From contig JAIDUH010000007.1 in the NCBI GenBank assembly GCA_029060285.1, positions 1 to 41,798 on the forward strand: 41,798 nt of DNA. The letters are read 5' to 3'. Shown here piece by piece: positions 1,793 through 16,060 of this stretch. Source of the stretch: Muribaculaceae bacterium (lineage in GTDB: Bacteria > Bacteroidota > Bacteroidia > Bacteroidales > Muribaculaceae). Positions within the stretch are counted from its first letter, which is position 1. Each line of letters opens with the position of its first letter. The position numbers were made by a program, and so were the translations under genes. The notes under the pieces were generated by a model. The model saw only the letters and a program-made list of their open reading frames with translations, was not told the origin of the DNA and searched no databases.

Positions 1793-2866
1793 TCAAAGTG
1801 ATTTTTTCCTTTTTGTCGCAGCGATGTAGATCATCGAAAATATGCCTAATAATATTGTCATGACAGTCTGGGTGCTCCATGCCACTATTGAGAATGCGGC
1901 TGCATCCGTATGTCCTACTCCATATAGCATCAAGGCATACATGACTGCAATGTTCCATGGTCCGAGTCCTCCGTTGCTTGGGATTGCCATGCTGAACGAT
2001 CCGAATACAAATGCCACCAATCCCGGAAGCAAACCGTAGGCATATCCCGGGTGAGTCAGAAGGTCTCTTGTGAATGGAAATGCGAAGAATACAAGATATA
2101 TCTTAAGGAAGTAGCATACCCAGATGGCAATTGTCAGGAATAGGTAGGTCCATCTTCCTTCCATGGTGAATATTACCTTGAATCCTTGCCACATTCTTGA
2201 GATGCTCAAATTGATACCCTTGAAGAATTTTGAATCCTTATATTTCAGGTCACATAAAACAAAGATGATGGCGGCAATTCCGATTCCTGTCCATAATTCC
2301 CATTTCGAGAGTACGTCCTCGATATCGCGTCCGAATGAATACTGGTTGAAGAAATGTGTGAGAGCGGGATTGGCTACAATAAGAGCCAGTCCGAGTAGCA
2401 ACACTATCATTACAAAGTCTGAACTACGGTCTGCAAGATCGGTGCCAACTACGGTTGACAATTTGGCTTTTTCACGACGCACTACATAGACGCATCTCCA
2501 GGCCTCCCCAAGATAAGGCACAAGAAGATTGATGGCATATGCTGAAAAGATAGAGACACTTTCTGACGTCACAGACATTCTTGGTATTCCGGCAGCACGC
2601 AGCTGATAACCCCATCTTATTCCCCTTATGGAATAAGAAAGCATCGTCAGCAGCATTACGAGAAGCAGCCACCAGTAGTTGCAGTCATGCGATGTGATGC
2701 TCCACACCTTATGGAAATCGACCTTACGGGACATCCATATTATCATTACTGTGGAGATGCCTAATGGAACTATTATTTTAAATATCTTCTCGACAGTGTC
2801 TTTCCACTTTCCTTTTATATCGGCAGTATTCCCTGGCTTGTTTTCGGTAATGTCACTTTTTGTCAT
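1793..2866 (-). CDS. Flippase-like membrane protein (LPG synthase TM / UPF0104 family)
   Basis: The 357-residue protein has an N-terminal cytoplasmic tail of about 25 residues followed by six to eight hydrophobic segments. The motif IPSNGGLGPWN near residue 295 and the early SIRGIRW are hallmarks of the lysylphosphatidylglycerol-synthase transmembrane region family (UPF0104, TIGR00374). The C-terminal catalytic domain of MprF is absent, as in most Bacteroidetes members. Members have been linked to lipid flipping or supporting glycolipid synthesis, but the substrate here is unknown. The gene precedes the DUF6056-like gene by 51 nt. It sits 92 nt downstream of the LytTR regulator stop, and I see no clear promoter in that gap. 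Confidence 0.85.
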   Translation of the reverse strand: MTKSDITENKPGNTADIKGKWKDTVEKIFKIIVPLGISTVMIIWMSRKVDFHKVWSITSHDCNYWWLLLVMLLTMLSYSIRGIRWGYQLRAAGIPRMSVTSESVSIFSAYAINLLVPYLGEAWRCVYVVRREKAKLSTVVGTDLADRSSDFVMIVLLLGLALIVANPALTHFFNQYSFGRDIEDVLSKWELWTGIGIAAIIFVLCDLKYKDSKFFKGINLSISRMWQGFKVIFTMEGRWTYLFLTIAIWVCYFLKIYLVFFAFPFTRDLLTHPGYAYGLLPGLVAFVFGSFSMAIPSNGGLGPWNIAVMYALMLYGVGHTDAAAFSIVAWSTQTVMTILLGIFSMIYIAATKRKKSL

Positions 2867-2958: not shown

Positions 2959-3744
2959 TCAAATATCGTAAAAGCGATCCATCAGTTCCTTTCTGTAGGT
3001 CTTTGATATCTTGATTTCTGTTATGTTGTCGAGAGGTGGCAGAAGCATGCAGTCATTCCCGTTTATTATGCCTATGTAGCGCACATTCACTATAAAGTGT
3101 TTATGTGTCCTTACGAAATCAGGACCGAATCCGAGGATGGTTTCTGCTGTAGTCTGGCGTTTTAATATGATCCGCTTAAGGCTATAGAATACGCACTCCC
3201 ATATTTTTCTTTCGGAAAGATATCTGAAGTATACTATGTCTGCCGGATTGACAATTACCTTTGAGTTAGTTACAGATGTGATGGAAAGCAGTTTGGCTCC
3301 ATTCGTATTTGTAAGGCGACCGGAAGAGGTGTCCATTGGCTTGCTGTGTCCTTCTCCAAGGTCGTTTTGAAGGCTACGAAATCTTTTGATGATCACGTCA
3401 AGTTCAGAAGCTTCAAAAGGTTTAAGCAGGAAGTCGAAGACCCGGAGCGAGAGTGCATCATGGATATAGCGCTGATAGCACGTGTGGAACACTACCTTGG
3501 TGTTTTCCGGTAGCGTTGTGTCTTCATACCATGACAAGCCGTTTCCCTCGGTAAAATTCATATCTAAAAACAGCAGGTCAGGTTGGAGCTTGTCTATGAG
3601 CTCTTCTCCTTCTTGCAGAGTCTCTGCAATGGCGCAAAGCTCCACATCTTTACGATTGGAAAGTTCTTCCGACAGAAGTTTTATGCTCGGTAAGTCGTCA
3701 TCAATTATTATCGCTTTGATTTTTGATTTTTTATTATCGTTCAT
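2959..3744 (-). CDS. LytTR-family response regulator
   Basis: This is a 261-residue two-domain regulator. The receiver domain (about 8-130) carries the acidic cluster IIIDDD, a phospho-acceptor Asp near residue 61 in LLFLDMNF, and the conserved Lys in LLKPFE. The C-terminal part (about 150-255) matches the LytTR DNA-binding domain, with the typical VRTHKHFIVNVRYI segment. It is presumably phosphorylated by the adjacent kinase and binds direct-repeat promoter sites. Its ATG lies inside the 3' end of the kinase gene (4-nt overlap), so translation is probably coupled. No target operon is evident from the window. Confidence 0.95.
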   Translation of the reverse strand: MNDNKKSKIKAIIIDDDLPSIKLLSEELSNRKDVELCAIAETLQEGEELIDKLQPDLLFLDMNFTEGNGLSWYEDTTLPENTKVVFHTCYQRYIHDALSLRVFDFLLKPFEASELDVIIKRFRSLQNDLGEGHSKPMDTSSGRLTNTNGAKLLSITSVTNSKVIVNPADIVYFRYLSERKIWECVFYSLKRIILKRQTTAETILGFGPDFVRTHKHFIVNVRYIGIINGNDCMLLPPLDNITEIKISKTYRKELMDRFYDI

Positions 3745-5756
3745 GGTTTGAGATTGTTTGGAATGATCATGGTGGCTAAATATCCTTTTTGTCCGTTATG
3801 CTCAGCATTTGTGTCCAAATGAAATGATGTCTGATCCCTATTGTGTTCGTTTATAAGTCGGATGGTTTCTAACAGCACTTTAAGTCCGGTTCCTCCCTTC
3901 TCGACATTGGCATGTTCTGTTCCGCAATTGTTGAAGACGCTTACTGAAATTTGGTTTTCACTCGTATTCCTCACAGATATAAGCAGCTTCCTTTCAGTTT
4001 CCGGGGCAAGTGTCGGGAAACCATGTTTGAAAGCATTCTCCACAAGTATCTGGAGTGTCATGGAAGGGAACATAAAGTCTTGATTTACTCCGTCTTCAAT
4101 GCTGCAACAATAGTCTAAGGTATCCCTGCCGTCGTCGCTGATCACCTTTATATAGTCATCCGTGAATTTCAGTTCCTCTGAGAAGGGAACGAGTATTTCC
4201 GAAGCGATGATTTGCTGCCGACGGATGAGATGTACTAATGCGTCCAGATGTGAAGGCTTGCCGCTCTTCTTGTTATAGAGCTCGTGGTTGAGGGCATTGT
4301 ATATGAAGTGAGGTGTCACGCGGCTTCTGAGATTTTCTTGTCTGAGGCTTATGATTTTTGTCATCATCTTCTGTTCGCGTTTACGCATGTTGGTGCGCCT
4401 TACCACATAAAATAGGATAAGTGCAATTATTATTGCAATTGCGATTGCGATTACTGCCATCAGCTTGTAGATGTTTGCTTGCTGGCGAGTGGCGCTCGCC
4501 TCAAGGTCCAGTATTCTGCGGTCGCGCTGATAACTGGCGTTAAGGGCTGATATCTGCTGCTTGAGTTTCTCTGATCTCAGGGAGTCGTTGAGATGGTCAT
4601 GCCTGCATCTTGTCACATATGCCATCCTGTTATTGCCGACGCTGTTATACAATTCTTCCAGGGCTTTTAGGCGCGCCAAGTGCTGTTCAAGCCTGAGGGT
4701 GTCGGCTTCAGGATGTATCTTTGCCAGATTGATGCCTTTTTCATATTCCCCTTTTGCCATAGCCACGCGCATCTGGAGAGTATGGACATAGGAGGTCACG
4801 ACAGGATTGGGTTGTTCTTCTGTGAAGAATCTTGCAGCTGAATCAAGAATTTCGGTGGCAATGCCGATTTCTCCAAGCCTGATATGCGAATCAGCGAGAT
4901 TGACATCTGTAAACATCTTTTCCCATCTTGTGCCGGGCACAGAGTCAAGCATTTTTCTAAGGCGGGTGAATATCTTATTGGCCTCCTCATAATCTTCTCT
5001 ATAGTAAAAGTCATTGCCATAACCGGTAAGTGTATTAAACTTATCATATTGGCTCATAGATTCAAGAATGCTCATTGACTTTTCCCACCAGACCTCGCTG
5101 TTGTCAAAGTCGCGCATATCGGTAAGCACGGAAGCAATGCCATTATACAGAGGTATGTAATGCACTGTTTCGAGTCCGATTGAGTCTGCGGCAGTGATTG
5201 CTCGATGGTAATAGAATGCCGCGCTGTCGAGAGCTGCAGACATTCTCAAGGCATTTGCATAATTGCTGTAAGCCTGGGGAAGGTCTTCCTTGATCCCTGA
5301 CATTTCCACATTATCGACAGCCTTGCGAAGATATAATGCGCTGGAATCAGGATTGAAGTAATACTGGTCATAATAAGCTCCATGAGTTTGATACGCCTTT
5401 GCAAGCAGTCGTGCTCTTTCTTTTGATAGCTTCTGGCGTTCAAGCCATATGATTGCCGAGTCGGAAGATGTCAGCACAAGCGGTGCGTTGCCTTGGTAAT
5501 AGGAATTGACTCCTTGTTGCACCATCGCCTCACACCAAAGTGCCGAGTCTTTTCTTGCGAGCGCCTCCTTTTTCAGAAGGTCTGTCATTTCAATGGCCAT
5601 TGATATGTTTCCCGCCCTCAGGGTGTCATTGATTTCGGCTATGACGGGAATCATCATAGATGAATCTCTCTCTTTTTTACATGAAGATATGTTAGCCAGC
5701 AAAATTGCCGACATAAACAATTGAATCCAGACAGGCTTATATATTGTGAATTTCAT
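3741..5756 (-). CDS. Lipobox-bearing TPR sensor histidine kinase (LytS/His_kinase type)
   Basis: The product has an N-terminal signal with a Cys in NISSCKK, a long alpha-helical region with TPR-like repeats, one transmembrane helix rich in Ile and Ala, a His_kinase domain with TPHFIYNALN around the phospho-acceptor His (about residue 480), and an HATPase domain with ILVENAFKHG and GGTGLKVL. The ORF track begins at a TTG (5789), but that TTG lies inside a TAATTTTG promoter element, so I place the start at the ATG 5756, directly before the signal sequence. The TPR region would be periplasmic and the kinase cytoplasmic. It overlaps the response regulator gene by 4 nt, forming a classic two-component pair. 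The signal sensed is unknown. Confidence 0.9.
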   Translation of the reverse strand: MKFTIYKPVWIQLFMSAILLANISSCKKERDSSMMIPVIAEINDTLRAGNISMAIEMTDLLKKEALARKDSALWCEAMVQQGVNSYYQGNAPLVLTSSDSAIIWLERQKLSKERARLLAKAYQTHGAYYDQYYFNPDSSALYLRKAVDNVEMSGIKEDLPQAYSNYANALRMSAALDSAAFYYHRAITAADSIGLETVHYIPLYNGIASVLTDMRDFDNSEVWWEKSMSILESMSQYDKFNTLTGYGNDFYYREDYEEANKIFTRLRKMLDSVPGTRWEKMFTDVNLADSHIRLGEIGIATEILDSAARFFTEEQPNPVVTSYVHTLQMRVAMAKGEYEKGINLAKIHPEADTLRLEQHLARLKALEELYNSVGNNRMAYVTRCRHDHLNDSLRSEKLKQQISALNASYQRDRRILDLEASATRQQANIYKLMAVIAIAIAIIIALILFYVVRRTNMRKREQKMMTKIISLRQENLRSRVTPHFIYNALNHELYNKKSGKPSHLDALVHLIRRQQIIASEILVPFSEELKFTDDYIKVISDDGRDTLDYCCSIEDGVNQDFMFPSMTLQILVENAFKHGFPTLAPETERKLLISVRNTSENQISVSVFNNCGTEHANVEKGGTGLKVLLETIRLINEHNRDQTSFHLDTNAEHNGQKGYLATMIIPNNLKP

Positions 5757-5786
5757 GGCAGATATTGATTCGTTACTTACAGATTG

Positions 5787-5794
5787 CAAAATTA
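5787..5794 (-). promoter_or_regulatory. -7 element of the kinase/regulator promoter
   Basis: On the minus strand the sequence reads TAATTTTG, a perfect match to the Bacteroidetes TAnnTTTG element. It lies about 30 nt upstream of the chosen ATG at 5756. No good TTTG is visible at the -33 position, so the call rests on the -7 box and its position. Confidence 0.55.
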
Positions 5795-5931
5795 ATCAAT
5801 TTTGTTGATTTTTTGAATGTTCCTGTCTTATATTTGAAGTCGTATTGATAAAAAAATTGTCGGTTCAGTTCCATTTTTAGTCATGTTGACGCCTGTTATT
5901 GGCTTTTTGGCTTAAAAATGAAATTTTAGAG

Positions 5932-5963
5932 GTTGGGTATTAGGAAATATTTTTATACCTTTG
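5932..5963 (+). promoter_or_regulatory. Promoter of a short transcript upstream of the tRNA
   Basis: TACCTTTG at 5956-5963 matches TAnnTTTG exactly. GTTG at 5932-5935 lies 20 bp upstream and matches three of four bases of the -33 TTTG. Transcription would start near 5969, with only a short unit ahead before a terminator at 6061-6095. Confidence 0.55.
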
Positions 5964-5998
5964 CATGTCAAACGTAAGCAAAACGCATCTCAATCAAA

Positions 5999-6070
5999 AT
6001 GTACTTATTTGTTTCAACCCTAAGCTTATATGCACTTTATGAAATGCTTAGCTTGCTAATAAGGGAGTGA
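5999..6070 (+). CDS. Possible 23-residue hydrophobic micro-ORF
   Basis: ATG at 5999 opens a 23-codon frame rich in Leu, Tyr and Ser and ending in a charged RE pair. It could form one short membrane helix. Its stop falls in the internal loop of the terminator hairpin, and it lies within the promoter-terminator unit 5932-6104. No Shine-Dalgarno sequence is visible, which is not unusual in Bacteroidetes. A second frame from ATG 5964 gives 25 less hydrophobic residues. It was too short for the ORF track, and coding status is unproven. Confidence 0.2.
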   Translation: MYLFVSTLSLYALYEMLSLLIRE

Positions 6071-6104
6071 CAGACAAACCATCTGTAGCTCCCTTTCTTA
6101 TTTC
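6061..6104 (+). terminator. Intrinsic terminator before the tRNA
   Basis: AAGGGAG (6061-6067) and CTCCCTT (6089-6095) form the outer stem, CAGA and TCTG the inner stem, and a TCTTATTTCC tail follows. It would separate the upstream short transcript from the tRNA. Confidence 0.6.
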
Positions 6105-6174
6105 CTTCGCCCATGCTTCCTGCATCAACTCTTGCACCTTGCAAAATAAAAAATCAAAAAAAACTGCAGAAATA

Positions 6175-6206
6175 TTTGCACAATACAAAAATAATTCTTA
6201 ACTTTG
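6175..6206 (+). promoter_or_regulatory. tRNA promoter
   Basis: TTTG at 6175-6178, a 20-bp spacer and TAACTTTG at 6199-6206 match the Bacteroidetes housekeeping promoter perfectly. The tRNA starts 18 nt after the -7 element. Confidence 0.85.
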
Positions 6207-6223
6207 CACTCGCAAAACGCGCA

Positions 6224-6297
6224 GGTCCTATAGCTCAGTTGGTCAGAGCACCTGACTCATAATCAGGGAGTCCTTGGTTCAAGCCCAAGTGGGACCA
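6224..6297 (+). tRNA. tRNA with CAU anticodon (elongator Met or Ile2)
   Basis: The 74-nt sequence folds as a cloverleaf. The acceptor stem is GGTCCTA with TGGGACC, the anticodon stem is CCTGA/TCAGG around the loop CTCATAA (anticodon CAT), and the T-arm is CTTGG TTCAAGC CCAAG. The discriminator is A, and CCA is not encoded. CAU can specify elongator methionine or, after lysidine modification by TilS, isoleucine AUA; I cannot decide from sequence alone. It is not initiator-like in its start. Its 3' half is the integration target of the adjacent island. Confidence 0.95.
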
Positions 6298-6306
6298 CAA
6301 ATTAGA
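6255..6306 (+). repeat. attL core (tRNA 3' end)
   Basis: These 52 bases, from the anticodon loop to nine bases past the tRNA, recur at 15792-15843 with a single change (C6295 to G). They form the left boundary of the element and keep the tRNA intact. Confidence 0.85.
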
Positions 6307-6420
6307 AATCAAGCAGTTTCGACTAATGTCGTAACTGCTTTCTTTTTTATCTTGAACACAAATCTGAACACAACTCCGCGCCAACTCTATTTTACCATGT
6401 CTTACTATGTCTTGTGTTCA
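6264..6420 (+). repeat. Left copy of a 157-bp direct repeat
   Basis: This segment aligns without gaps to 15904-16060 at roughly 88 percent identity by eye. It contains the tRNA 3' end, a terminator hairpin and the paired TGAACAC motifs. Being longer than the 52-bp core, it implies that the chromosome right of the island already carries the left end of a related element. Confidence 0.8.
6311..6349 (+). terminator. tRNA terminator (element-borne)
   Basis: AAGCAGTTTCGAC pairs with GTCGTAACTGCTT (one T/T mismatch), followed by TCTTTTTTA. The counterpart at 15951-15980 has a perfect stem, with changes clustered in the loop. It probably ends the tRNA transcript. Confidence 0.7.
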
Positions 6421-6668
6421 TGGTACTAGGTTCAAAGAATAGCTTTAGTCTATCTCCAACATTCGTTCCATTTCATGAGCCATAATAGATTAAGATCAAA
6501 AAACTTTATTACTATCTGGAGTGTTCTTTTTAAGAATGATTACAGTCTATAATTCTATTGTAAAGTAACCTTTATGAGAGTCTTTAAAGTATTCTTAAAC
6601 TAATTTGCCTTTTGAATTATAGTGAAGAATCTAAATATTTACTAATTAAAGTTTTAATATATATTGAA
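6421..6668. other. AT-rich intergenic stretch in the island, no gene seen
   Basis: No open frame of note, clear promoter or hairpin is visible on either strand between the left-end repeat and the broken small gene at 6669. The base composition is strongly AT-rich, as in the genes that follow. Confidence 0.5.
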
Positions 6669-6905
6669 ATGAAACATATTAGGGATGTTCTATCTCAAAA
6701 TCAAGAATTCTTTGCCTATGAATAAGGTTTTGATGCATCATATTCCTTTTATGCAGTCTTACCAATAGATAATAAGTGTAGATTTGTAGAGTATACAATA
6801 GCATACAAAAAGTTAGAAATTAGTAGTTTCATACTCTCAAAATCAGAAGCTATAGACATCTTGAAGAAATGTCAACGCATTGATAAAACCTATTTAAATA
6901 TTTAA
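6669..6905 (+). pseudogene. Small unknown gene with in-frame stop
   Basis: ATG at 6669 opens a frame that hits TAA at 6723-6725 (codon 19) and then stays open in the same frame for 59 more codons to TAA at 6903-6905. The downstream part has normal coding texture (mixed charged and hydrophobic residues, a Cys, many Lys), so the whole looks like a 78-codon gene with a nonsense mutation. No usable start codon follows the internal stop. It ends 2 nt before the next gene, as in an operon. It was absent from the ORF track because each piece is short. I recognise no family. Confidence 0.5.
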
Positions 6906-6907
6906 AG

Positions 6908-7345
6908 TTGTTTGAGTCTATTTATTCACACATAGGATACACAGTAATCGCCTTGACAAATCTAATAATCTTAGATAAAGAATTAATCGATTTAGATTTC
7001 TCTGATGTTACGAAACTCGAATTTTATGTTAGCTCATACACTCCATATGACAGTAATAGAGTTTCAGAATCAAGAATTTCTTTTTCAAAAAGAGATGATT
7101 ATGTATTTATAGAACAAAACTACTATGATGGTTGTCCTGTGGAATGTGTGCCTGATTATCCCTTTTGGGAAGTAAAAATAAGTGTGAAAGGAATGTCGTT
7201 TGACAAACGTTATGCAACACCAATATCAGAAAAGACATATAATATTTTTGATGCAACCTTAGTTGATGGTATAGGAGTATGGATGGAATTATGCAGATCT
7301 ATAGATAGATCATATACAGATATAACGAAGAGTAAAAATGAATGA
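6908..7345 (+). CDS. Hypothetical protein, AT-rich island cargo
   Basis: This 145-residue soluble protein has no signal peptide or membrane segment and no family I recognise. It is mixed in charge, with many aromatic residues and a CPVECVPDYPFWEV stretch. The track start is TTG at 6908, 2 nt after the preceding broken frame. No in-frame ATG appears early, so TTG or translational coupling is plausible. The stop overlaps the next start (ATGA), indicating a three-gene unit. Small AT-rich soluble proteins in clusters on mobile elements are often immunity-type or accessory proteins, but no toxin is visible here and I assign no function. Confidence 0.6.
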   Translation: MFESIYSHIGYTVIALTNLIILDKELIDLDFSDVTKLEFYVSSYTPYDSNRVSESRISFSKRDDYVFIEQNYYDGCPVECVPDYPFWEVKISVKGMSFDKRYATPISEKTYNIFDATLVDGIGVWMELCRSIDRSYTDITKSKNE

Positions 7346-7704
7346 ATTTTATCAATATAATATTTATAACAGCATATATGGAAAGGATTTACACTTATAG
7401 TAACGAACAGCAACGAGATGCAGAAGAAATCAAGTTGGATATTGCTTCTGCTATAGAAAAACTTCCTGCTTTTGTAGAGTTAATGAAATTTATTTATGAG
7501 GGAAGTAAAGGATTGAATGTTGAAATCAAAGGAAAGAGTATTGATGATGCTTTCGATTGCATAATTGATCGGAATAAGGTCTTTATAAAAACAAGCAACT
7601 TGTCAAAGCAGGATAAAGAAAATGAGATAAATAGAATGGAATGCGAATTGAAATTAATGAAAGAAGCGTTTAAAGACTCTTTGAAACTAAAAATTAGCTA
7701 CTGA
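7342..7704 (+). CDS. Hypothetical helical protein, island cargo
   Basis: The 120-residue product is rich in Lys, Glu and Ile. The part after residue 13 looks almost wholly alpha-helical, with a possible coiled coil near the C-terminus (KQDKENEINRMECELKLMKE). The ATG at 7342 overlaps the previous stop by 4 nt, which favours that start. A second ATG at 7378 would remove a short hydrophobic N-terminus and is possible. No family is recognised. Its codon use is AT-rich, like the two genes before it. Confidence 0.6.
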   Translation: MNFINIIFITAYMERIYTYSNEQQRDAEEIKLDIASAIEKLPAFVELMKFIYEGSKGLNVEIKGKSIDDAFDCIIDRNKVFIKTSNLSKQDKENEINRMECELKLMKEAFKDSLKLKISY

Positions 7705-7770
7705 TCATTAATGTTGTCTGGCACAAGCCGAATTTGCGATGCATTTATAAAAAATGGGCTTATTGAAATG

Positions 7771-8305
7771 TTATAATTTAGGCATCGGGTTTGACGAGCT
7801 GGAAGATGAAAAAACTCCTGTCCCGGAACCTCTCATCTGCAACCAAAAGATCTTGACCATTGAGTTGAATGCCTCAGCAGAGGCGTTTGTGGTACGTCTT
7901 AGAAATAGTTCAGGATCATCGGGGCATGTTTGAAAGTCATGATGACCAACGTGAAGTTTGGATTGTCAAGAGCCGATACCTTTTCATATACTGGCTCATC
8001 AGTTTCATCACGGTTGTCCGTTTTGTTTTCCTATTGAAGAACCCACGCAGTTCCATTTCAAGTTCTTAGACCTGCCTGAGCATGGGATAGTACATGAAAA
8101 GAATGTTTACGCGGTGCTTGCGTATGTCATACCATTTGTTGCTGGCCATCATCGTCGCATGTTTACTTTTGGTCAGGATCTGGCGCAGGATCTCTCCTTT
8201 GAGTATGTCTTTGGTATCTGTGACATATCGCGGCGTTATCTTTGGAGATCAGCTGACGGCGGATATTAATGCGGATCTTAGCGATAGCATTTATAGATAA
8301 GTCAA
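7771..8305 (-). pseudogene. ISAon1-like (ISL3-type) transposase remnant, C-terminal part
   Basis: Minus-strand translation across shifting frames gives recognisable pieces of a Bacteroidetes ISAon1-family transposase in the right order: an IRINIRRQL-like segment near 8260, KSKHATMMASNKWYDIRK near 8130, and TTNASAEAFNSMVKIF near 7870, the last matching the conserved TNASAESFNAKIK block. At least two frame changes and internal stops separate them, and the N-terminal half is missing. No terminal inverted repeats are visible. This is a dead insertion-sequence fragment. The plus-strand ORFs listed here are shadows. Confidence 0.6.
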
Positions 8306-8309
8306 CAGG

Positions 8310-8545
8310 TGCGAGCTGACGCCCTCTACGCAGAAGCCTACGCAGAAGTAGATGCATATATGCGGGCGCACTTTCTCATTGTACCGGTAGCTATAGGCCT
8401 TGTGCGAAGTTCGAGCTTGGAGTTGATGACCGGCGATAGAACCGACTCAATACGATCCATGATTGAAAAAATTCCACCAAAAGGTTTGAGTTTCTCGGAT
8501 TTTATTGCTATCTTTGCTACATCAAGTGAGATTTTTCGCTCTTTG
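8310..8545 (-). pseudogene. IS1380-like transposase remnant, N-terminal part
   Basis: On the minus strand, IKSEKLKPFGGIFSIMDRI followed by a shifted frame with RYNEKVRPHICIYFCVGFC matches the N-terminus of Bacteroidetes IS1380-family transposases (KLTPFGGIFSIME ... YSEIIR ... YFCGGSC). The frame breaks after roughly 60 residues. The sequence then runs into the ISAon1-like fragment, so two unrelated insertion-sequence relics are fused here. Only a small N-terminal portion of the roughly 430-residue protein remains. Confidence 0.55.
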
Positions 8546-8673
8546 GCTTTGCAACACAAAGATAAGTAAAAAATCCGACATGGCAAAATACTGAGCAACT
8601 TATTGTTACTCAGCAACCTTATTGATATTTTACAAATTTAGTTGCGGATTTAAGGATATATATTTATAAACTC

Positions 8674-10113
8674 ATGAGTTCCATTGTAAAATTTTTAACC
8701 GATCTTGATTGCGAGTTATGGATTGATCAATCTAAGATTGCAGACCTGTCTAAAGAGATTATCTATAAGCACACTCTCACTTCCGGGAAGTATATTTTAG
8801 ACTTTAGGTATAAAGGAAAAACTCTTAAATATATTGATTATATCATCGCTGATGATACAGAGGATCTTATAAAAGTTAAACTAACTAAATCTTTAACTAT
8901 AGAGGTTAAGAATTCTCTTAGAATGTTATATGGATGTCTTTACCCAGAGGGGACAATGATTTATGGAGATATTATGAAAATAGAAGTGAGTTTCGATGGA
9001 GAGAATTGGGAAGAGTATAAATACACAACAAAGTATACTTTGCCTATAAACCAATGTGGGTTAACGTTAAAATTTACATATGGAACTTCTTCATATGACT
9101 ATGAAAAAAAAGAAAGCTATGACTGGATCGGTAAAATTTATCAAGAATCATTTTTTTTTGAAAAAAACGGAGACTTCTACTTTGAATGGGGTCTTAAAAA
9201 ACAGAAACTCATATCTTCTTTAAATCCATATTCTTTTAAATCCCTCTCTAATTATGAAGGATTAGACACTACAATCGAGGTTAATATTTCATGGTTGAAT
9301 ATAGACAAGATAAATTGCTTCTTTACAAAAATTAATAATCAATGGTTTATTTCTACCGTATTAAATGATAAGGCATTTTCACAGCCTATGCCTCTGGATG
9401 ATAATGTATCATCAATTCGCGGTGTAGATCTCCCATATCTACTTATAGAATCAAACAGTAAACTCTCTATTTATGATTTAGATAATAAAAAACTGTTATT
9501 CCCGTATGAGTTTGAACAAATATATAATGAGCATTACGACTACGACGGTAATATCAAACACTTCTGTAAAATAAATCAATATCAAAACTTCAAAGTTTCA
9601 AAAAACAAATTAGTAGGTCTTGCTGATACTAAAGGGAATATTCTTATTTCTCCTCAATATAAAGAAATATACCGGACAAGCATTGGGCTAGTAGGAGTAA
9701 CCTTGGGAGATTCAAGATCATGGGTAGTGTTAAATTCTGGCAAACGATTTGATAAGTTATTTAGTTTTGACTTTACACATTCAGGAGAGATTATTGAAAG
9801 TACGCCAGACTTGGGTATTACGCTATTCTTTGTAAAAGATGGAGAGATAGGATGGTGGAATAGTGAAGGTGTGGAATCTAATGTAATGGTAGATGAGGTA
9901 AAAAGTGTGGGTATGAACCCTCTTGAGCTTGAGAGATTTAAAGATGATGAATTGTTTTATGCGAAAAAACAGGGTAAATGGGGTTTAATTTCAAGGATTG
10001 GAGGGGTGGTAATTCCCTTTCTACATAATGAAAATTTTGGCTTTACCTTTGAATGTGAGCAAGTTTCAAAAGGATATAAAATGATACATGAATCTTTTTC
10101 CATAAAACTATAA
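8674..10113 (+). CDS. WG-repeat protein, AT-rich cargo
   Basis: The 479-residue protein starts with FLTDLDCELWID, resembling the PEGA-like N-terminus seen on Bacteroidetes WG-repeat proteins. It then has a middle beta-rich region and degenerate WG repeats: one around residues 310-335 with KLVGLADTKGNILISPQYKEI, one near 395 with GEIGWWNSEG, one near 435-455 with QGKWGLISRIGGVVIPF. WG repeats are thought to form beta-propeller-like or repeat folds for binding; the function is unknown. There is no signal peptide. The gene faces opposite to the mobilization genes, and its stop is about 35 bp from the point where the relaxase similarity ends, so its arrival probably removed the rest of the relaxase. 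A clear promoter is not visible. Confidence 0.75.
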   Translation: MSSIVKFLTDLDCELWIDQSKIADLSKEIIYKHTLTSGKYILDFRYKGKTLKYIDYIIADDTEDLIKVKLTKSLTIEVKNSLRMLYGCLYPEGTMIYGDIMKIEVSFDGENWEEYKYTTKYTLPINQCGLTLKFTYGTSSYDYEKKESYDWIGKIYQESFFFEKNGDFYFEWGLKKQKLISSLNPYSFKSLSNYEGLDTTIEVNISWLNIDKINCFFTKINNQWFISTVLNDKAFSQPMPLDDNVSSIRGVDLPYLLIESNSKLSIYDLDNKKLLFPYEFEQIYNEHYDYDGNIKHFCKINQYQNFKVSKNKLVGLADTKGNILISPQYKEIYRTSIGLVGVTLGDSRSWVVLNSGKRFDKLFSFDFTHSGEIIESTPDLGITLFFVKDGEIGWWNSEGVESNVMVDEVKSVGMNPLELERFKDDELFYAKKQGKWGLISRIGGVVIPFLHNENFGFTFECEQVSKGYKMIHESFSIKL

Positions 10114-10507
10114 AAGTATACTTATCATAATAAGACATTGCTTGTAGATGATGGGCATAGACAAAGTAAGGCTGCTTGTCGTACCCTATGCCTTTCATCA
10201 GCTCACGGGCAACGCCGGTAAGTTCCTGCGGTGTCATAGTGCGTCCTTCAACGGATGCCGACACATGAAACTGAAAACGGTCGGTATTTGTATTGCCGTA
10301 GGTCTTTGACCTCTCTTTCAGGTAGCGTTCCACCTCGGAAGCTGCGTCAAGTCCGAAACGGTGCATGGTCTCGACTGTGTGGCGCAGTCTTTCGCTTACA
10401 TTTGCCATCAACATCAGTTCGGCAACACCGGCCGCAACCTTATCTTCATTGTATTTTGCACCGGGGAAACCTCCACCTTTTACATCACTGAGCTTCTTGA
10501 CAATCAT
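10043..10507 (-). pseudogene. mobB: Truncated relaxase (MobB-type mobilization nuclease)
   Basis: The first 120 residues match Bacteroides relaxase/mobilization nuclease proteins: MIVKKLSDVKGGGFPGAKYN, RHTVETMHRFG, RFQFHVS and QPYFVYAHH. Tyr19 is a candidate nicking tyrosine. Family members continue through the DTDNNHVHI metal-binding motif and a long C-terminus, but here the similarity stops right after YAHH at about 10148. The remaining residues are out-of-family and run into the WG-repeat gene on the other strand. The protein cannot be an active nuclease. A GGGAGT ribosome site precedes the ATG, and the gene follows the MobC-like gene by 11 nt. Confidence 0.8.
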
Positions 10508-10518
10508 ACTCCCTGGAT

Positions 10519-10902
10519 TTATGATTTGAGCATTTCATACAGATAGCGCAACATATCCTGAATAATCTTCATCTCTCCACCGAATTGACTGAAGGGAAGA
10601 AGGTCGTTGGCGGTAAAGACAAGTGGCGACATCTTCATCTTCTCGTTTATGCACTTGACAGCCTGATTATGATTGACACCTATTCTGTCAATCTTTTTAA
10701 TGGCAGTTGAAATAAGTGCTATAAGTTGAGGGTTGGTTTCAGATGGCTCCGATGACGTGACTTCCTCGGAATATTTTAGCGAAGCACAGCGGATCAGCGC
10801 ACTAATATTCCCGCCGAAATAGGTAGAGGCTTTTTCTCGCATTTGTCTGTGTATAGTTTCATCGACTCTCGTATTTATGGTGATTTCTTTTTTCTTCGAC
10901 AT
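10519..10902 (-). CDS. MobC-like relaxosome accessory protein (often called MobA in Bacteroides)
   Basis: From the ATG at 10902 the product is 127 residues and begins MSKKKEITINTRVDE, a ribbon-helix-helix-like start. A basic helix follows, then SALIRCASLKY and a C-terminal helical region with NHNQAVKCIN, a pattern of MobC-family mobilization proteins that bind oriT next to the relaxase. The track start at 10995 adds 31 residues that read through short repeats (YSN, ITQYHN) and is unlikely. The gene lies directly upstream of the truncated relaxase. With the relaxase broken, this protein has no intact partner in the window. Confidence 0.75.
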   Translation of the reverse strand: MSKKKEITINTRVDETIHRQMREKASTYFGGNISALIRCASLKYSEEVTSSEPSETNPQLIALISTAIKKIDRIGVNHNQAVKCINEKMKMSPLVFTANDLLPFSQFGGEMKIIQDMLRYLYEMLKS

Positions 10903-11660
10903 GATATTATGGTATTGAGTAATTGAATGATTTTGTAATTGGAGTATCATAGTATTTGAATATTGAAGCATTGCATACTTCAGACACTCCGTCATTGGAA
11001 TATTGTATCATCAGACTATTACATCATTATGGTATCGGTTACATTGACTGCGGTTCCTCGGTCACTTTATCCAAAATACCGGCGTTATCAGTAGCGTTCT
11101 CCGACAAACTGAGGTTCATCGGTTACTTAATCCGATTAACCGATATTGCCTTATTCGAACAACCGAAGTGTTTCGGTTCTTTAATCCCAAACATCAAAGT
11201 CTGCGAGTTTCGAGCGGAATTAACCCTCACCTCGGGGGAGGCGGATTTGCCGTTGTGTATACAATCGGCATATCTTGCAAAGCAAGGTTGACCTCCATTT
11301 CATAGCCCGTGCAACAACCATATTCTCGCTCTCACGTCTCGTCCAGACCTTCATTCAATCCAAAGTACCCAGGTTTCCCGTTACCTTGGTTAAACCATCC
11401 TGAGTTTCTCGGTACCTGAGTTTGAACAACCTCGGTTTCTCGGTTACATAAACAGACTGACTGATAGATTAAGGTATTAGCATACTCAGCTCATCGGATA
11501 ATCTTTTACTTCGGTATTGTCAGATTTGAATAATGAAGTATTGTTGTATTCCGATGATTCGTTAATGTGATAACTCAGTTCGACAAAGTCTCAAAATCTC
11601 ATAGTATCACAGTAGGGAAGATAATTTCACTTCCCTCTGATGATACAGTATCCTCTTCGA
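10903..11660. other. Non-coding repeat-rich region upstream of the mobilization genes
   Basis: This 758-bp stretch has no credible gene; the 111-residue plus-strand ORF is a shadow of repeats. It carries degenerate repeats around TCGGTTAC, with AT-rich ATTGAAT/GTATC repeats nearest the MobC-like gene and a second set near 11360-11455. Two adjacent hairpins lie at 11249-11286. In mobilizable elements this is where oriT is expected. Confidence 0.5.
11236..11286. promoter_or_regulatory. Candidate oriT hairpins
   Basis: GCCG-TTGT-GTAT-ACAA-T-CGGC (11249-11269) forms a near-perfect hairpin with one bulged T. CTTGC-AAA-GCAAG (11274-11286) forms a second hairpin four bases later. Both lie about 350 bp upstream of the MobC-like start, within the expected position for an origin of transfer. 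No nic site can be identified by eye. Confidence 0.3.
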
Positions 11661-11975
11661 TTAACTAATATGGTTGGGCTTTGTATTAGCAGATGCCAGC
11701 TGTAAGGCAAGATCTGCGTTAATCACAATCTTTCGGCCAACTTGGGTGATGGCCTTGTCTATTACTCCGCTTTTCTTAATACGGATTGCAGTTGCTTTGC
11801 TGCAACAGAAGATGTCGCATATTCCGGCGATGCCGTAAACGTAACGTTTTTCCGATGGAGTCTCCTTGGTGGTTTCAGTATGGCTGCTAGTGTCGGCTGT
11901 TTGTCGTGAGAGGAACAGTAGCTCTTCCCCGGTCATCTGCCACACAGGTTTTGATAGAAGATTTTCTATTTTCAT
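11661..11975 (-). CDS. DUF3853 family protein
   Basis: The 104-residue protein begins with SKPVWQMTGEELLFL and has KRYVYGIAGICDIFCCSKATAIRIKKSG followed by ITQVGRKIVINADLAL, which is the DUF3853 pattern. The middle segment looks like a MerR/excisionase-type helix-turn-helix, so DNA binding is likely. Such genes are common between integrase and mobilization genes in Bacteroides mobilizable elements and may control excision or mobilization; that role is inference. Its leader (11976-12130) contains five 18-bp tandem repeats and a 16-bp perfect palindrome, suggesting regulated expression. Confidence 0.85.
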   Translation of the reverse strand: MKIENLLSKPVWQMTGEELLFLSRQTADTSSHTETTKETPSEKRYVYGIAGICDIFCCSKATAIRIKKSGVIDKAITQVGRKIVINADLALQLASANTKPNHIS

Positions 11976-12006
11976 GGGTGGAAATTTTTAAGTGTGGGAA
12001 AAAGAT

Positions 12007-12096
12007 CGCCAAAGGAACGTAGGGCACTAAAGGAACAGAGGTCGCTAAAGAAACAGGTGTCACTAAAGAAACAAAGGGTGATAAAGGCAACGTGGA
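12007..12096. repeat. Five 18-bp tandem repeats in the DUF3853 leader
   Basis: Units start at 12007, 12025, 12043, 12061 and 12079. The shared core is about CNCTAAAGNAACANNGGN; units 2-4 are closest and units 1 and 5 more diverged. Read on the minus strand they encode hexapeptide repeats of the VSLV/VPLA kind in a 67-residue frame that overlaps the DUF3853 start. The array could be protein-binding iterons or a repetitive leader; the period (18, divisible by 3) permits either. Confidence 0.75.
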
Positions 12097-12110
12097 GTAT
12101 GGCCATACTC
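12095..12110. promoter_or_regulatory. 16-bp perfect palindrome, candidate operator
   Basis: GAGTATGG followed by CCATACTC is a perfect inverted repeat. It lies 15-30 nt downstream of the transcription start expected from the minus-strand TAATTTTG at 12133-12140 and abuts the fifth tandem repeat. That is a typical position for a dimeric repressor site. Confidence 0.5.
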
Positions 12111-12132
12111 ATTTTGTCCCCATGAGACTCTG

Positions 12133-12140
12133 CAAAATTA
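12133..12140 (-). promoter_or_regulatory. -7 element of the DUF3853 promoter
   Basis: The minus strand reads TAATTTTG, a perfect TAnnTTTG match, about 158 bp upstream of the DUF3853 start. No clear -33 TTTG is seen at 20 bp. Confidence 0.45.
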
Positions 12141-12502
12141 CAATAGACTTTTCTTATGTGAAGAAAATCTGAACACTTTTCTTAAATAAAACGTATGATT
12201 TTATTTTTGCCATGAAAAACTCAGAAATACAAAGTTGTCGTAATCTGCAAGTTGATAGATTCAAATTTTTGTTCCATAACACTTTGCGGATTTATTGGCG
12301 ACGTGATAAAATTTCGGTGTAGCCAAAAAGGTGACGATAAGATGTTCCATTGGACCAAAATGGGCATAGATAGAAGTTGCCCCAACAAGATAGATGATGA
12401 AGAAAAAGATTAGAATCTTTAGTTCTACACTATAATGTCAGACTTCGTATTGGAAAAAATGTGACATAGAACAAAAATGTCAGTATATTCAAATGGAACA
12501 GC
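12141..12502. other. Intergenic stretch in the island, no supported gene
   Basis: Only short frames occur. A plus-strand TATTTTTG at 12202-12209 directly precedes an ATG opening a 36-codon frame (12212-12322), but there is no -33 element and no family resemblance, so I do not call it a gene. Confidence 0.4.
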
Positions 12503-12537
12503 AGGGAGAAAAAGGCTTCAAATTCCCTTTTCTCCCT
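12503..12537. terminator. Hairpin downstream of the ATPase gene
   Basis: AGGGAGAAAA (12503-12512) pairs perfectly with TTTTCTCCCT (12528-12537), and GG/CC extends the stem after one mismatch. It is about 75 bp past the ATPase stop on the minus strand. It lacks a clean terminal U-run, so it may be a terminator or a 3'-end stabilising stem. Confidence 0.5.
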
Positions 12538-12613
12538 TTAAGCCTACGAAATATAATATTCACTTTGTCCACTCATCAGCGTCATAGGAGGATACAGATG
12601 TTACTTGGTGCAT

Positions 12614-14029
12614 TTATTGGAATAGTATATCCGATGTAAAGCTTGTGTCTATCCCATACGAATATTCGTTTTCTGCCAAGCCTTCAAATGTCAACATTGT
12701 CAGGAATATTGACTTATGAGACTTTAACGAATTTTGCAAACGCATACGCTTATTTTCAAGATTTTCAAGGTATTTCTTTGAGATGGCAAATCTTCCCTTT
12801 GTGAATTTTATCTCAATGATATTGATTGCCTTGTCATTACGGTCGATTAGCAAATCTATCTCAGCACCTGGTTGTCCATCGGATGGCAGAGCACGCCATG
12901 AACATTCGCTTGTCAACACTCCTTGAATCCCCAACGCTCTTTTTATGAGATTTGTATGTTGGAGACACGTCCTTTCAAACGCATGACCGCTCCAATTATT
13001 ATATTTCGATGTTCCTTGGATTTTTGACCAATAGTCTTCATCATAAAGCGTCTTTTTTGATAAAAACCGGAAATGGAACAATGTGAAGTTGTCTATTAAC
13101 TGAAATAACGCATTTTTTGTCTTCGAACCAATAGCATTGTAACGTCGTATGAACCCGCTTGATTCAAGTTCCTCCAAATAAATCTTTATGCGGCCCGTAT
13201 CCGGCAGTGATGTCTCACGTATTATTTCTTCGCGGGTCATTCCAACTTTTTTGTTGCCAAGTGCGGTAATCACCGCCATATATGGCTCCGGGTTCTTAAA
13301 CAACGAGGAATATAATTCCTTGAATTCATCTTTGAGCTTTGCTTCTCTTGCAAAGAACAGTGCGTTAATATTGGAAACAAGACTCTGTCCCCGTTTTAAC
13401 AGTGACCAATAGTAAGGTACTCCTCCTAATATCATATATGCCTCCACTAATACCTTGCGCGGCATATTGAGTCGCTGAGATTTTGAATACTCCTCACACT
13501 CGCCCAATGTAAATGGCCGTAGATATATTTTATCAGAAAGCCTGTTATGTAAACCACCCTTGTTGTGGAATATCTTATTAACGACCCACGATGTTGCAGA
13601 GCCACAGATTATAAGCAGAATGTCCTTCCTCGCGGAAGCCCATCCATTCCAAAAATTTTCAAAGGCTGGTAGAAAACTTGATTTCGGCCCATCCATCCAT
13701 GGTAGTTCATCAATGAACACAATCTTCTTTCCCTTTTGCAAGCCATTGAGATAATCTGACAATTGACCGAACGCTTCTATCCAATTTACCGGAATTTTCT
13801 TGACTGAGGCTCCATGCTGTTTCAGCGCCATATGAAAATTTTGAAGCTGAGCTTTGGTAGATACATTATAGATCCCTGAATAAGAAAATGAAAATTTGCC
13901 ATCGAATGTTTCCCTTACAAGAAATGTCTTGCCAATGCGCCTCCTGCCGTATATGGCAATAAATTCAGACCTATCCGATTTATATGCATCGGTCAAAGCC
14001 CTTGCCTCATCTTTTCGTCCAATCAACAT
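12614..14029 (-). CDS. AAA ATPase with C-terminal nuclease-like domain (ATPase_2/DUF234 type)
   Basis: The 471-residue protein has Walker A GRRRIGKT at residues 28-35 and Walker B KKIVFIDELPW near 101-111. A winged-helix region follows around 255-305 (MTREEIIRETSLPDTGRIKIYLEELESS by pattern), then a C-terminal PD-(D/E)XK-like segment GAEIDLLIDR...IIEIKF. This is the ATPase_2 plus DUF234 arrangement, widespread in Bacteroidetes and archaea. The C-terminal domain probably is or was a nuclease. The biological role is unknown; defence or element maintenance are possibilities. It has its own promoter (TAATTTTG at 14060-14067) and is separated from the integrase by a strong inverted repeat, so it is an independent unit inside the island. 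Confidence 0.85.
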   Translation of the reverse strand: MLIGRKDEARALTDAYKSDRSEFIAIYGRRRIGKTFLVRETFDGKFSFSYSGIYNVSTKAQLQNFHMALKQHGASVKKIPVNWIEAFGQLSDYLNGLQKGKKIVFIDELPWMDGPKSSFLPAFENFWNGWASARKDILLIICGSATSWVVNKIFHNKGGLHNRLSDKIYLRPFTLGECEEYSKSQRLNMPRKVLVEAYMILGGVPYYWSLLKRGQSLVSNINALFFAREAKLKDEFKELYSSLFKNPEPYMAVITALGNKKVGMTREEIIRETSLPDTGRIKIYLEELESSGFIRRYNAIGSKTKNALFQLIDNFTLFHFRFLSKKTLYDEDYWSKIQGTSKYNNWSGHAFERTCLQHTNLIKRALGIQGVLTSECSWRALPSDGQPGAEIDLLIDRNDKAINIIEIKFTKGRFAISKKYLENLENKRMRLQNSLKSHKSIFLTMLTFEGLAENEYSYGIDTSFTSDILFQ

Positions 14030-14059
14030 ATCTTAGTCCGTTTTTATTTTTATCCGGTG

Positions 14060-14067
14060 CAAAATTA
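14060..14067 (-). promoter_or_regulatory. -7 element of the ATPase promoter
   Basis: The minus strand reads TAATTTTG, 30 bp upstream of the ATG at 14029. The 5' UTR would be about 25 nt. Confidence 0.55.
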
Positions 14068-14080
14068 CAAAATAAAATTT

Positions 14081-14131
14081 ACATCACAAGACGGAATCGC
14101 AATTATTTTTTGAGATTCCGTCGCTTGATGT
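14081..14131 (-). terminator. Long inverted repeat, probable integrase terminator
   Basis: ACATCACAAGACGGAATC and GATTCCGTCGCTTGATGT form a long stem with a small bulge around an AT-rich loop. On the minus strand it is followed by AAATTTTATTTTG. It lies 75 bp past the integrase stop and just upstream of the ATPase promoter. Confidence 0.65.
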
Positions 14132-14205
14132 ATCTGGTTTGCGCAATATATGCCGTTAAAACATAACCAATATATGAAATGGTAAAAGGGAAAATATCTG
14201 TATTA

Positions 14206-15555
14206 TCATGTAGATGGCACGATGAAGATTTTTTCATTAAAAGCCTGCATCATCGCTGGAGTTACATTGGAGATGTAACCTGCGAGAAGAGCCGACACTT
14301 CAGATGTAGCGTGCCCTACGGCATAGTCGATGTATGCAGTCATAACGCCATGATGTGCCAGAGCTGAAATGAAGGAATTGCGGGCATATTGTGGTGTGAC
14401 ACATTGGATGCCGAGCGACTCACATACATCCTTGATGTTCTTTGAAATTCTACGGTTGAAGTCGTGTACACGGATTGCCTTTTGTTCATCCGTAACAGCA
14501 TTTAGAAAGATGTCAGGAAAAACAAGCTCACCGGGATTATATGGCGAGGCATATTCATCAAGCAGCTGGCGCAATTGAGGAATAATCGGTACTGATGTTT
14601 CATCAAGCTGCTTGCCGATAGGTTTATTCGCTCTGTCAATCTTGGAGCGTATAAAAACAAACTGCGGATAGTTCTGCTTGACTGCTGCTTTCTCAGTCCA
14701 TACGAGTTTAGCCATATCAATGGTATTCATTCCGTTTAGACAATACAAGAGCAGCCAACGTCCTACAGCACGGGCATATTTCGATTGCTTATCAGGTGAA
14801 GCAAGCCAATAGTCCCAAAGTTTCAATACCTCCTCCACTGTCAAGGCATTCAGACGGCGACGATTTCCGGCATGGATTAGCCCTTTAAAGTTCGGAGCAA
14901 TCATTGTATGTCCGTCCTTCTGTGCCTGATTGAATACTGCCCGAGTAGCACGAAGGATTACCATTCTGGTATCAAGAGAAAGAGGCATATCCGTGCCATT
15001 ACGGGCTTTCTGTTCATCAAGCCATTTAGAAAAGCGTGTGATTATTGCGGTATCTACTGCACCGAGTGAAATCGGCTTATCCTTGCGGAACAGTTTGAAC
15101 CAGTCAAGAGCAGACGAATACATGGCACGTGTTTTTACCTTCTCTTTCGAGGCACCAAGAGCCTCCCAATAAGAAAATGTATCGTCTGCCTTCATTGTCT
15201 TTTCCGTTACCTTACCTTCCGATCTTTCCATATGGCTTTTGAGGTCGGCAACCGAAAAACGATTTAGCAATATAAGTTCATCCGCTTTAGCACATACCTG
15301 ATCAAATATCTTTCGGAGACCTTTCCTGGTTTCAATAGCGGAATTCGATTTAGAGAATAACGCTTCGTATTCCTTGATTGACGATACCTTGACCCCGGTC
15401 GCAAAATATCGTCGTACCCTCTGATGGGTGACGCAGACCGTCAACGGCACAGGTTTACCTGTATCGAATTTATATCTATTGTCCGTGGCAAGAACGATGT
15501 ATATTGTCGCTCCTGCGAATCTTCGTGATTCATCACTGAAAAGAGCCTTATTCAT
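14206..15555 (-). CDS. int: Tyrosine recombinase (site-specific integrase)
   Basis: The 449-residue protein has an N-terminal arm-binding region, a SAM-like core-binding domain (about 125-230) and a catalytic domain. Visible catalytic features are CLNGMNTIDMAKL in the box I position, TPQYARNSF carrying the second Arg, VGHATSEVS, and the nucleophile Tyr in LAGYIS. As in many Bacteroides integrases such as IntDOT, the usual box I Arg is replaced (here Asn in GMN). The residue after the second Arg is Asn where His is common. It sits at the right end of the island, reading inward, 236 bp from attR. TTGAACAC-like repeats lie upstream of its start and recur at the left end. Confidence 0.93.
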   Translation of the reverse strand: MNKALFSDESRRFAGATIYIVLATDNRYKFDTGKPVPLTVCVTHQRVRRYFATGVKVSSIKEYEALFSKSNSAIETRKGLRKIFDQVCAKADELILLNRFSVADLKSHMERSEGKVTEKTMKADDTFSYWEALGASKEKVKTRAMYSSALDWFKLFRKDKPISLGAVDTAIITRFSKWLDEQKARNGTDMPLSLDTRMVILRATRAVFNQAQKDGHTMIAPNFKGLIHAGNRRRLNALTVEEVLKLWDYWLASPDKQSKYARAVGRWLLLYCLNGMNTIDMAKLVWTEKAAVKQNYPQFVFIRSKIDRANKPIGKQLDETSVPIIPQLRQLLDEYASPYNPGELVFPDIFLNAVTDEQKAIRVHDFNRRISKNIKDVCESLGIQCVTPQYARNSFISALAHHGVMTAYIDYAVGHATSEVSALLAGYISNVTPAMMQAFNEKIFIVPST

Positions 15556-15561
15556 ATTGCC

Positions 15562-15661
15562 GTGTTCAAGATTGTGTTCAAGTTTCTATCTAATCTCTCA
15601 AACCCATCAAAACAATCAGGGAGGGTGTTCAGATAATAGCTTTTGAACACCATTTGAACAC
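15562..15661. promoter_or_regulatory. Integrase arm-type site cluster (right end)
   Basis: GTGTTCAAG occurs at 15562 and 15574, spaced 12 bp apart. GTGTTCAG is at 15625, and TTGAACAC is at 15643 and 15654. The same word pair occurs at the left end (6352-6359 and 6364-6371, 12 bp apart). Short direct repeats at both ends of an element beside its integrase fit arm-type binding sites. They lie between the integrase promoter and its start, so they could also autoregulate it. Confidence 0.5.
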
Positions 15662-15688
15662 AACTCCAAAGTTTCAAGAGGTCTCATG

Positions 15689-15720
15689 TAAAATTACAAA
15701 ATTCTTTTAACACTTGCAAA
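15689..15720 (-). promoter_or_regulatory. Integrase promoter
   Basis: On the minus strand, TTTG (15717-15720), a 20-bp spacer and TAATTTTA (15689-15696) match the Bacteroidetes promoter except for the last base. The 5' UTR would be about 128 nt and contain the arm-type repeats. Confidence 0.5.
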
Positions 15721-15791
15721 TATCTAACATTCAAATCTCTAATTAATCATAAAGAATCACGAAGTTTCTTATAAAATCATACTATCCACCT

Positions 15792-15843
15792 ACTCATAAT
15801 CAGGGAGTCCTTGGTTCAAGCCCAAGTGGGAGCACAAATTAGA
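15792..15843 (+). repeat. attR core
   Basis: This matches 6255-6306 at 51 of 52 positions. It contains only the 3' part of the tRNA, as expected at the right end of an element integrated into the tRNA gene. The sequence diverges sharply just after it. Confidence 0.85.
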
Positions 15844-15868
15844 GTCGCTATTTTTAGCGACTTTTTTT
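15844..15868 (+). terminator. Intrinsic terminator right of attR
   Basis: GTCGCTA and TAGCGAC form a 7-bp stem with a TTTT loop, followed by seven T residues. This is probably the chromosomal tRNA terminator, displaced from the tRNA by the insertion. Confidence 0.75.
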
Positions 15869-15871
15869 GTA

Positions 15872-16060
15872 AGAGCACCTGACTCTCCTTGTCCATCATT
15901 TGGCAGGGAGTCCTTGGTTCAAGCCTAAGTGGGACCACAAATTAGAAATCAAGCAGTTACGACAACAATCGTAACTGCTTTTTCTTTTGTCTTGAACACA
16001 AATCTGAACACAACTCTGCGTCAACTCCATTTTGCCATGTCTTCCTATTGTCTGTGTTCA
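15872..16060 (+). repeat. Fossil tRNA fragment and second left-end copy
   Basis: AGAGCACCTGACTC (15872-15885) matches the tRNA at 6245-6258. Then 18 unrelated bases replace ATAAT, and from 15904 to 16060 the sequence follows 6264-6420 without gaps at about 88 percent identity. It includes a perfect-stem terminator (15951-15980) and the TTGAACAC/CTGAACAC pair. It cannot make a tRNA. It looks like the left end of an older related element left behind in the chromosome. Confidence 0.7.

Follow-up and report, generated by a model that had tools for sequence, protein, structure and literature searches.

A probable small RNA gene and its likely control by a divergent LytS/LytTR sensor system in gut Muribaculaceae

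Introduction

Does the short gap between a sensor kinase operon and a tRNA-Met gene carry a gene of its own, what does it specify, and what controls it? The question is raised by the window, here meaning the whole 41.8-kb contig of a Bacteroidales MAG that was analysed, the named near relatives of which are mostly Muribaculaceae MAGs (record labels: Muribaculaceae, Porphyromonadaceae, Muribaculum, Bacteroides). The gap is 467 bp long and is flanked by the minus-strand kinase operon on one side and the plus-strand tRNA-Met on the other. A first-pass annotation had placed a short autonomous transcript ahead of the tRNA, specifying either a small RNA or a tiny membrane peptide. Comparison with related genomes indicates that the unit is probably a small non-coding RNA gene, conserved in gut Muribaculaceae and switched on by the adjoining LytTR sensor system, a reading that is drawn from sequence analysis.

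Structure of the locus

The features of the locus are collected in Table 1. The informative neighbour of the unit is the divergent LytS/LytTR operon (nt 2959–5756, minus strand) on its other side, which was missing from the first-pass annotation. Genes past the regulator, including that for the LPG-synthase-type membrane protein, are the same only in the closer group of the loci compared (L117–L132); in the distant relatives of that comparison the conserved part consists of the kinase, the regulator and the upstream unit.

Table 1. Predicted features of the small RNA locus and its surroundings (nt positions in the window)
Feature	Position	Strand	Remarks
LPG-synthase-type membrane protein	1793–2866	-	follows the regulator gene in the operon
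Response regulator with LytTR DNA-binding domain	2959–3744	-	Pfam PF00072 and PF04397; gene order same in relatives
LytS-type sensor kinase with TPR repeats	3741–5756	-	Pfam PF06580 and PF13424; orthologues adjoin every homologue
-7 box TAATTTTGC of the divergent kinase operon	5786–5794	-	conserved in alignment of relatives
Half-site R1 (putative, LytTR-like)	5859–5868	+	21-bp tandem array
Half-site R2 GTCATGTTGA (putative, LytTR-like)	5880–5889	+	21-bp tandem array
Half-site R3 GGCTTTTTGG (putative, LytTR-like)	5901–5910	+	period 21 bp, same as YpdB
-7 box TACCTTTGC of the small RNA	5956–5964	+	TAnnTTTGY in 14/14 aligned genomes
Small RNA gene	5965–6103	+	covariance model, 9 genomes, E <= 2e-20; block conservation
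UUUCAACC, proposed base-pairing seed	6012–6019	+	invariant in the 9 close homologues
Conserved CUUGC just 5' of terminator	6052–6056	+	related ACTTGCA-type blocks in more distant homologues too
Intrinsic terminator	6061–6103	+	hairpin 6061–6095, U-rich tail 6096–6103; hairpin kept, sequence replaced in relatives
tRNA-Met	6224–6298	+	

The sequence TTTTTATACCTTTGCA provides a perfect Bacteroidota -7 box at nt 5956–5963, and a TTG near nt 5933–5935 forms the -33 element, in agreement with the promoter consensus of this phylum (TAnnTTTG with a -33 element; PMC7366714). The terminator hairpin, AAGGGAGTGACAGA-N7-TCTGTAGCTCCCTT (-17.1 kcal/mol), is followed by TCTTATTT. A generic sigma-70 and terminator scan detected neither signal at the small RNA; the promoter was missed because the Bacteroidota type is outside the coverage of the scan, and the terminator probably because of an internal stem mismatch. 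With the start placed from the -7 box, the predicted transcript runs from about nt 5967 to 6103 (~137 nt). The closeness of promoter and terminator, which could be chance in a single genome, is conserved across 14 genomes and so is not fortuitous; the bounded unit of the first-pass annotation is thus real, and having its own promoter and Rho-independent terminator it has the make-up of the autonomous intergenic small RNAs of Bacteroidota. The fold of the whole unit is better than those of dinucleotide shuffles (z = -3.6). An internal stem that had also been proposed (CTAAGC/GCTTAG) can be drawn, but it does not form in the minimum free energy fold and is lacking in some relatives.

Homologues and distribution

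A DNA search of 111 same-genus genomes was made with the unit alone as query, the tRNA being left out as tRNA matches swamped the results. It returned copies in G108 (87% identical), G127 (84%), G107 and G109, all divergent from an orthologue of the window's kinase. With the kinase as query, 16 close orthologues (52–83% identical) and five remote ones were recovered in addition to that of the window. Upstream of these orthologues, a matching arrangement is seen in the DNA of G126, G111, G005 and G124; in G130, G115, G102, G032 and G133 it is present in diverged form. In the latter five, operator, promoter and terminator persist and the RNA body has largely diverged, so that core conservation is a property of the closer group. 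Three further loci (G122, G012 and G086) stop at a contig edge.

A covariance model built from nine sequences matched those nine with E-values of 2e-25 to 2e-20, as expected of its own source sequences; the informative results are that each genome carries a single copy and that nothing better than 0.048 was found beyond the nine in the 111 genomes. All nine RNA copies are divergent from an operon for a LytS-type TPR kinase and a LytTR regulator, and neither the kinase search nor the covariance search of the 111 genomes found the RNA without the kinase. Across 198 sampled family genomes, which include few same-genus carriers, a kinase search at 1e-60 recovered only the window's own gene. An order-wide search for the promoter plus UUUCAACC pattern gave three unrelated, chance-like matches in 392 other genomes, and the Rfam 15 covariance models, applied at the gathering threshold, matched only the tRNA, placing the RNA in no Rfam family.

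Putative operator array and proposed control

The alignment of 14 genomes is free of gaps over about 95 bp on the 5' side of the -7 box, a stretch carrying three tandem 10-nt half-sites with a period of 21 bp that are in register in 13 of the 14 (examples from relatives are GTCTACTTGG and GGCCTTTTGG). In G133 the array lies one base out of position with respect to the box, and in G032 the R3 half-site is weak. Self-similarity peaks at a lag of 21 (0.48 identity, 13 genomes), a value reached in none of 5000 column permutations. Measured from the inferred start of the small RNA, the centres of the half-sites lie about 60, 81 and 102 bp upstream, with R3 alone at about -60 and the R2-R3 pair at about -71. 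LytTR regulators bind repeats of 9–11 nt separated by spacers of 11–13 nt, and the site of YpdB is GGCATTTCAT-N11-GGCATTTCAT, with a period of 21 bp (PMC4847170). Tandem repeats and spacers within these ranges, lying upstream of a promoter, are what the array consists of, and from this geometry and the neighbourhood we infer that the adjoining LytTR regulator binds it. Among the remote kinase orthologues, L078 (G120) and L079 (G015), 39–42% identical, are preceded by a promoter and a strong hairpin about 100–160 nt further on, and three similar half-sites occur there at 21 + 20 bp (e.g., GGCGAGTTAT, GGCGTTTCAT); the layout may therefore be older than the RNA sequence.

When the array pattern was searched for in nine genomes, it matched this locus in seven (G005 and G109 are one base off the strict pattern) and showed no excess elsewhere, occurring only at the level of a reversed control, so that this locus appears to be the chief target, if not the sole one. 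A tentative reading, held at somewhat below even chances, is that of a LytTR system with essentially one direct output, the divergent small RNA, acting through a three-half-site operator present only at that locus; if true, responses downstream of the sensed signal would be post-transcriptional. The predicted operator, between two divergent promoters, may also autoregulate the kinase operon.

That position could let the array act on either promoter, and the small RNA could be real yet constitutive or governed by another factor, with the LytTR operon a mere neighbour or the repeats serving the kinase promoter alone. This is unlikely, as the spacing between the array and the small-RNA promoter is fixed and free of gaps in 14/14 genomes, whereas the kinase-side stretch varies in length and sequence, and the exclusive association of RNA with kinase also speaks against it. 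It is considered likely that the RNA represents a new small non-coding family, is under LytTR control and makes up a single module with the divergent LytS/LytTR two-component system. Onto the observed anatomy, conservation, exclusive neighbourhood and operator geometry of this module, a phosphorelay can be drawn in which the TPR sensor kinase would phosphorylate the LytTR regulator. The latter would then bind the three head-to-tail half-sites 21 bp apart and activate the sigma-ABfr-type promoter. Transcription would yield the ~137-nt RNA, ending at its own terminator, and the exposed UUUCAACC stretch (UCAACC) could base-pair with target mRNAs.

Conservation within the RNA

Comparison with G107 and G109 shows an uneven distribution of identity. 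The core (nt 6001–6058, the UUUCAACC block up to the terminator) is 81–86% identical, the 5' part of the RNA 31–37% and the terminator 42–45%; outside the RNA, the values are 93% for the -7 box, 59–69% for the operator and 53% for the between-promoter stretch next to the kinase promoter. The terminator has been swapped for another hairpin, GGGGACGC...GCGTCCCC in G107/G109 and GGAACG...CGTTCC in G111/G005/G124, which suggests selection on the transcript ending there rather than on the sequence. Consensus folding, a check proposed for the stems, returned no covarying fold beyond the terminator, and only four pairs within it, since the terminators lack base-by-base homology; no claim of covariation is attached to this result.

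Across 11 representative RNAs, UCAACC is found 10 times where shuffles give 0.46, an excess of about 20-fold that reflects conservation and not independent events, since the RNAs are related. CAACC is predicted to be mostly unpaired in 9/9 homologues. Pairing of UUUCAACC with mRNAs is given roughly even chances. A target search with the seed complement GGTTGAAAYAAATA, allowing one mismatch, gave counts equal to those of a reversed-pattern control and no recurrent gene, an outcome that carries no information at such a short seed length. The RNA might instead bind a protein and titrate it through UCAACC, a variant of the last step of the proposed scheme that is compatible with a short, single-stranded motif and with the two copies in G111. 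Titrating RNAs usually carry many copies of their motif. Most homologues have a single UCAACC, making titration an unlikely function.

Leader and coding alternatives

The unit could also act in cis, as the leader or attenuator of a gene further along, either the tRNA or a former gene, and tRNA-Met does follow on the same strand in the window and in G108. This is very improbable: a separate -7 box, TAACTTTGC, lies just 5' of the tRNA, and at the loci with enough flank (L122, L123, L125, L126, L127, L129, L130, L131 and L132) no tRNA was found and the next large gene past the RNA is convergent, which argues that the unit is not a leader. A leader of the tRNA was accordingly rejected. The description of the transcript as lying ahead of the tRNA is correct for the window; the tRNA is, however, an incidental neighbour, having its own promoter and being absent from more distant loci.

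The 23-codon hydrophobic frame that had led to the suggestion of a membrane-peptide mRNA is present as described (ATG at nt 5999, MYLFVSTLSLYALYEMLSLLIRE, TGA at nt 6068–6070 inside the terminator hairpin), and a 19-codon version is kept in G127, but a peptide can practically be dismissed, as six of the eight relatives lack the ATG (G107, G109, G126, G111, G005 and G124), the frame of G108 stops after 10 codons, and core indels put the frame out of register, conservation being stronger for the nucleotides than for the frame. The micro-ORF was rejected on the missing start codons and the early stop. No reading frame is shared among the eight relatives, in keeping with the small RNA class. Conservation of promoter, core and terminator, together with convergent downstream genes in most relatives, upholds both the short autonomous transcript and the remark that no ORF caller would annotate the region. 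That the unit specifies a real non-coding RNA is held with high confidence.

Comparison with known systems

The closest analogue in layout is the agr/RNAIII system of Staphylococcus aureus, in which the operon of a LytTR regulator (AgrA) lies beside a divergent regulatory RNA (PMC7602753), and the direct repeats bound by AgrA, with centres near -60, precede both promoters (PMC4227749; PMC7602753). The likeness is one of layout only. RNAIII is 514 nt long, heavily structured and encodes delta-haemolysin, whereas the RNA described here is ~137 nt, is without a conserved frame and has no sequence relation to it. The agr locus has peptide-signal genes; here the sensor is of the TPR type and no peptide gene was seen. 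With no homologous RNA in Rfam, no peptide-signal genes, and an operon of kinase, regulator and unrelated membrane proteins, the locus does not belong to agr. VR-RNA under VirR of Clostridium perfringens offers a further parallel, VirR being likewise of the LytTR type. The VirS/VirR two-component system has regulatory RNAs in its regulon (PMC7602753), but VR-RNA is 386 nt, was not found described as a divergent neighbour of virRS, and comes from a different phylum.

YpdA/YpdB of Escherichia coli with its target yhjX provides a LytS/LytTR pair with tandem 10-nt repeats, a 21-bp period and a single target (PMC4847170); the YpdB target is a protein gene with two half-sites, and the present one would be an RNA gene with three. 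GibS and MasB of Bacteroides thetaiotaomicron represent the class of intergenic small RNAs, often with a sigma-ABfr promoter and a Rho-independent terminator (PMC7366714; PMC10994844). They were compared by sequence through Rfam only. MasB belongs to the Cur regulon, and LytTR is not mentioned in PMC10994844. By class, the RNA belongs with the ordinary intergenic small RNAs of Bacteroidota that have a sigma-ABfr promoter and terminator; its family is absent from Rfam 15.

No paper in the open-access literature searched connects small RNAs of Bacteroidota with a LytTR system. In a gut family that is dominant but little studied, the locus offers a concrete pair: a sensor, and as readout a promoter whose operator is defined. 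Confirmation would mean that an agr-like layout of LytTR operon and divergent regulatory RNA arose outside Firmicutes too.

An apparent integrated element at the tRNA gene

The stretch just 5' of the tRNA (nt 6143–6219, including the TAACTTTGC box) has similar counterparts in many same-genus genomes. A repeat of the tRNA-Met 3' end occurs at nt 15787–15843 (97%) and 15904–15950, adjoining a minus-strand tyrosine recombinase gene (nt 14206–15555; PF13102/PF00589). An element of about 9.5 kb (window nt 6224–15950) appears to be integrated in the tRNA gene, and a PF01637-type ATPase (nt 12614–14029) is encoded within it, beside the recombinase.
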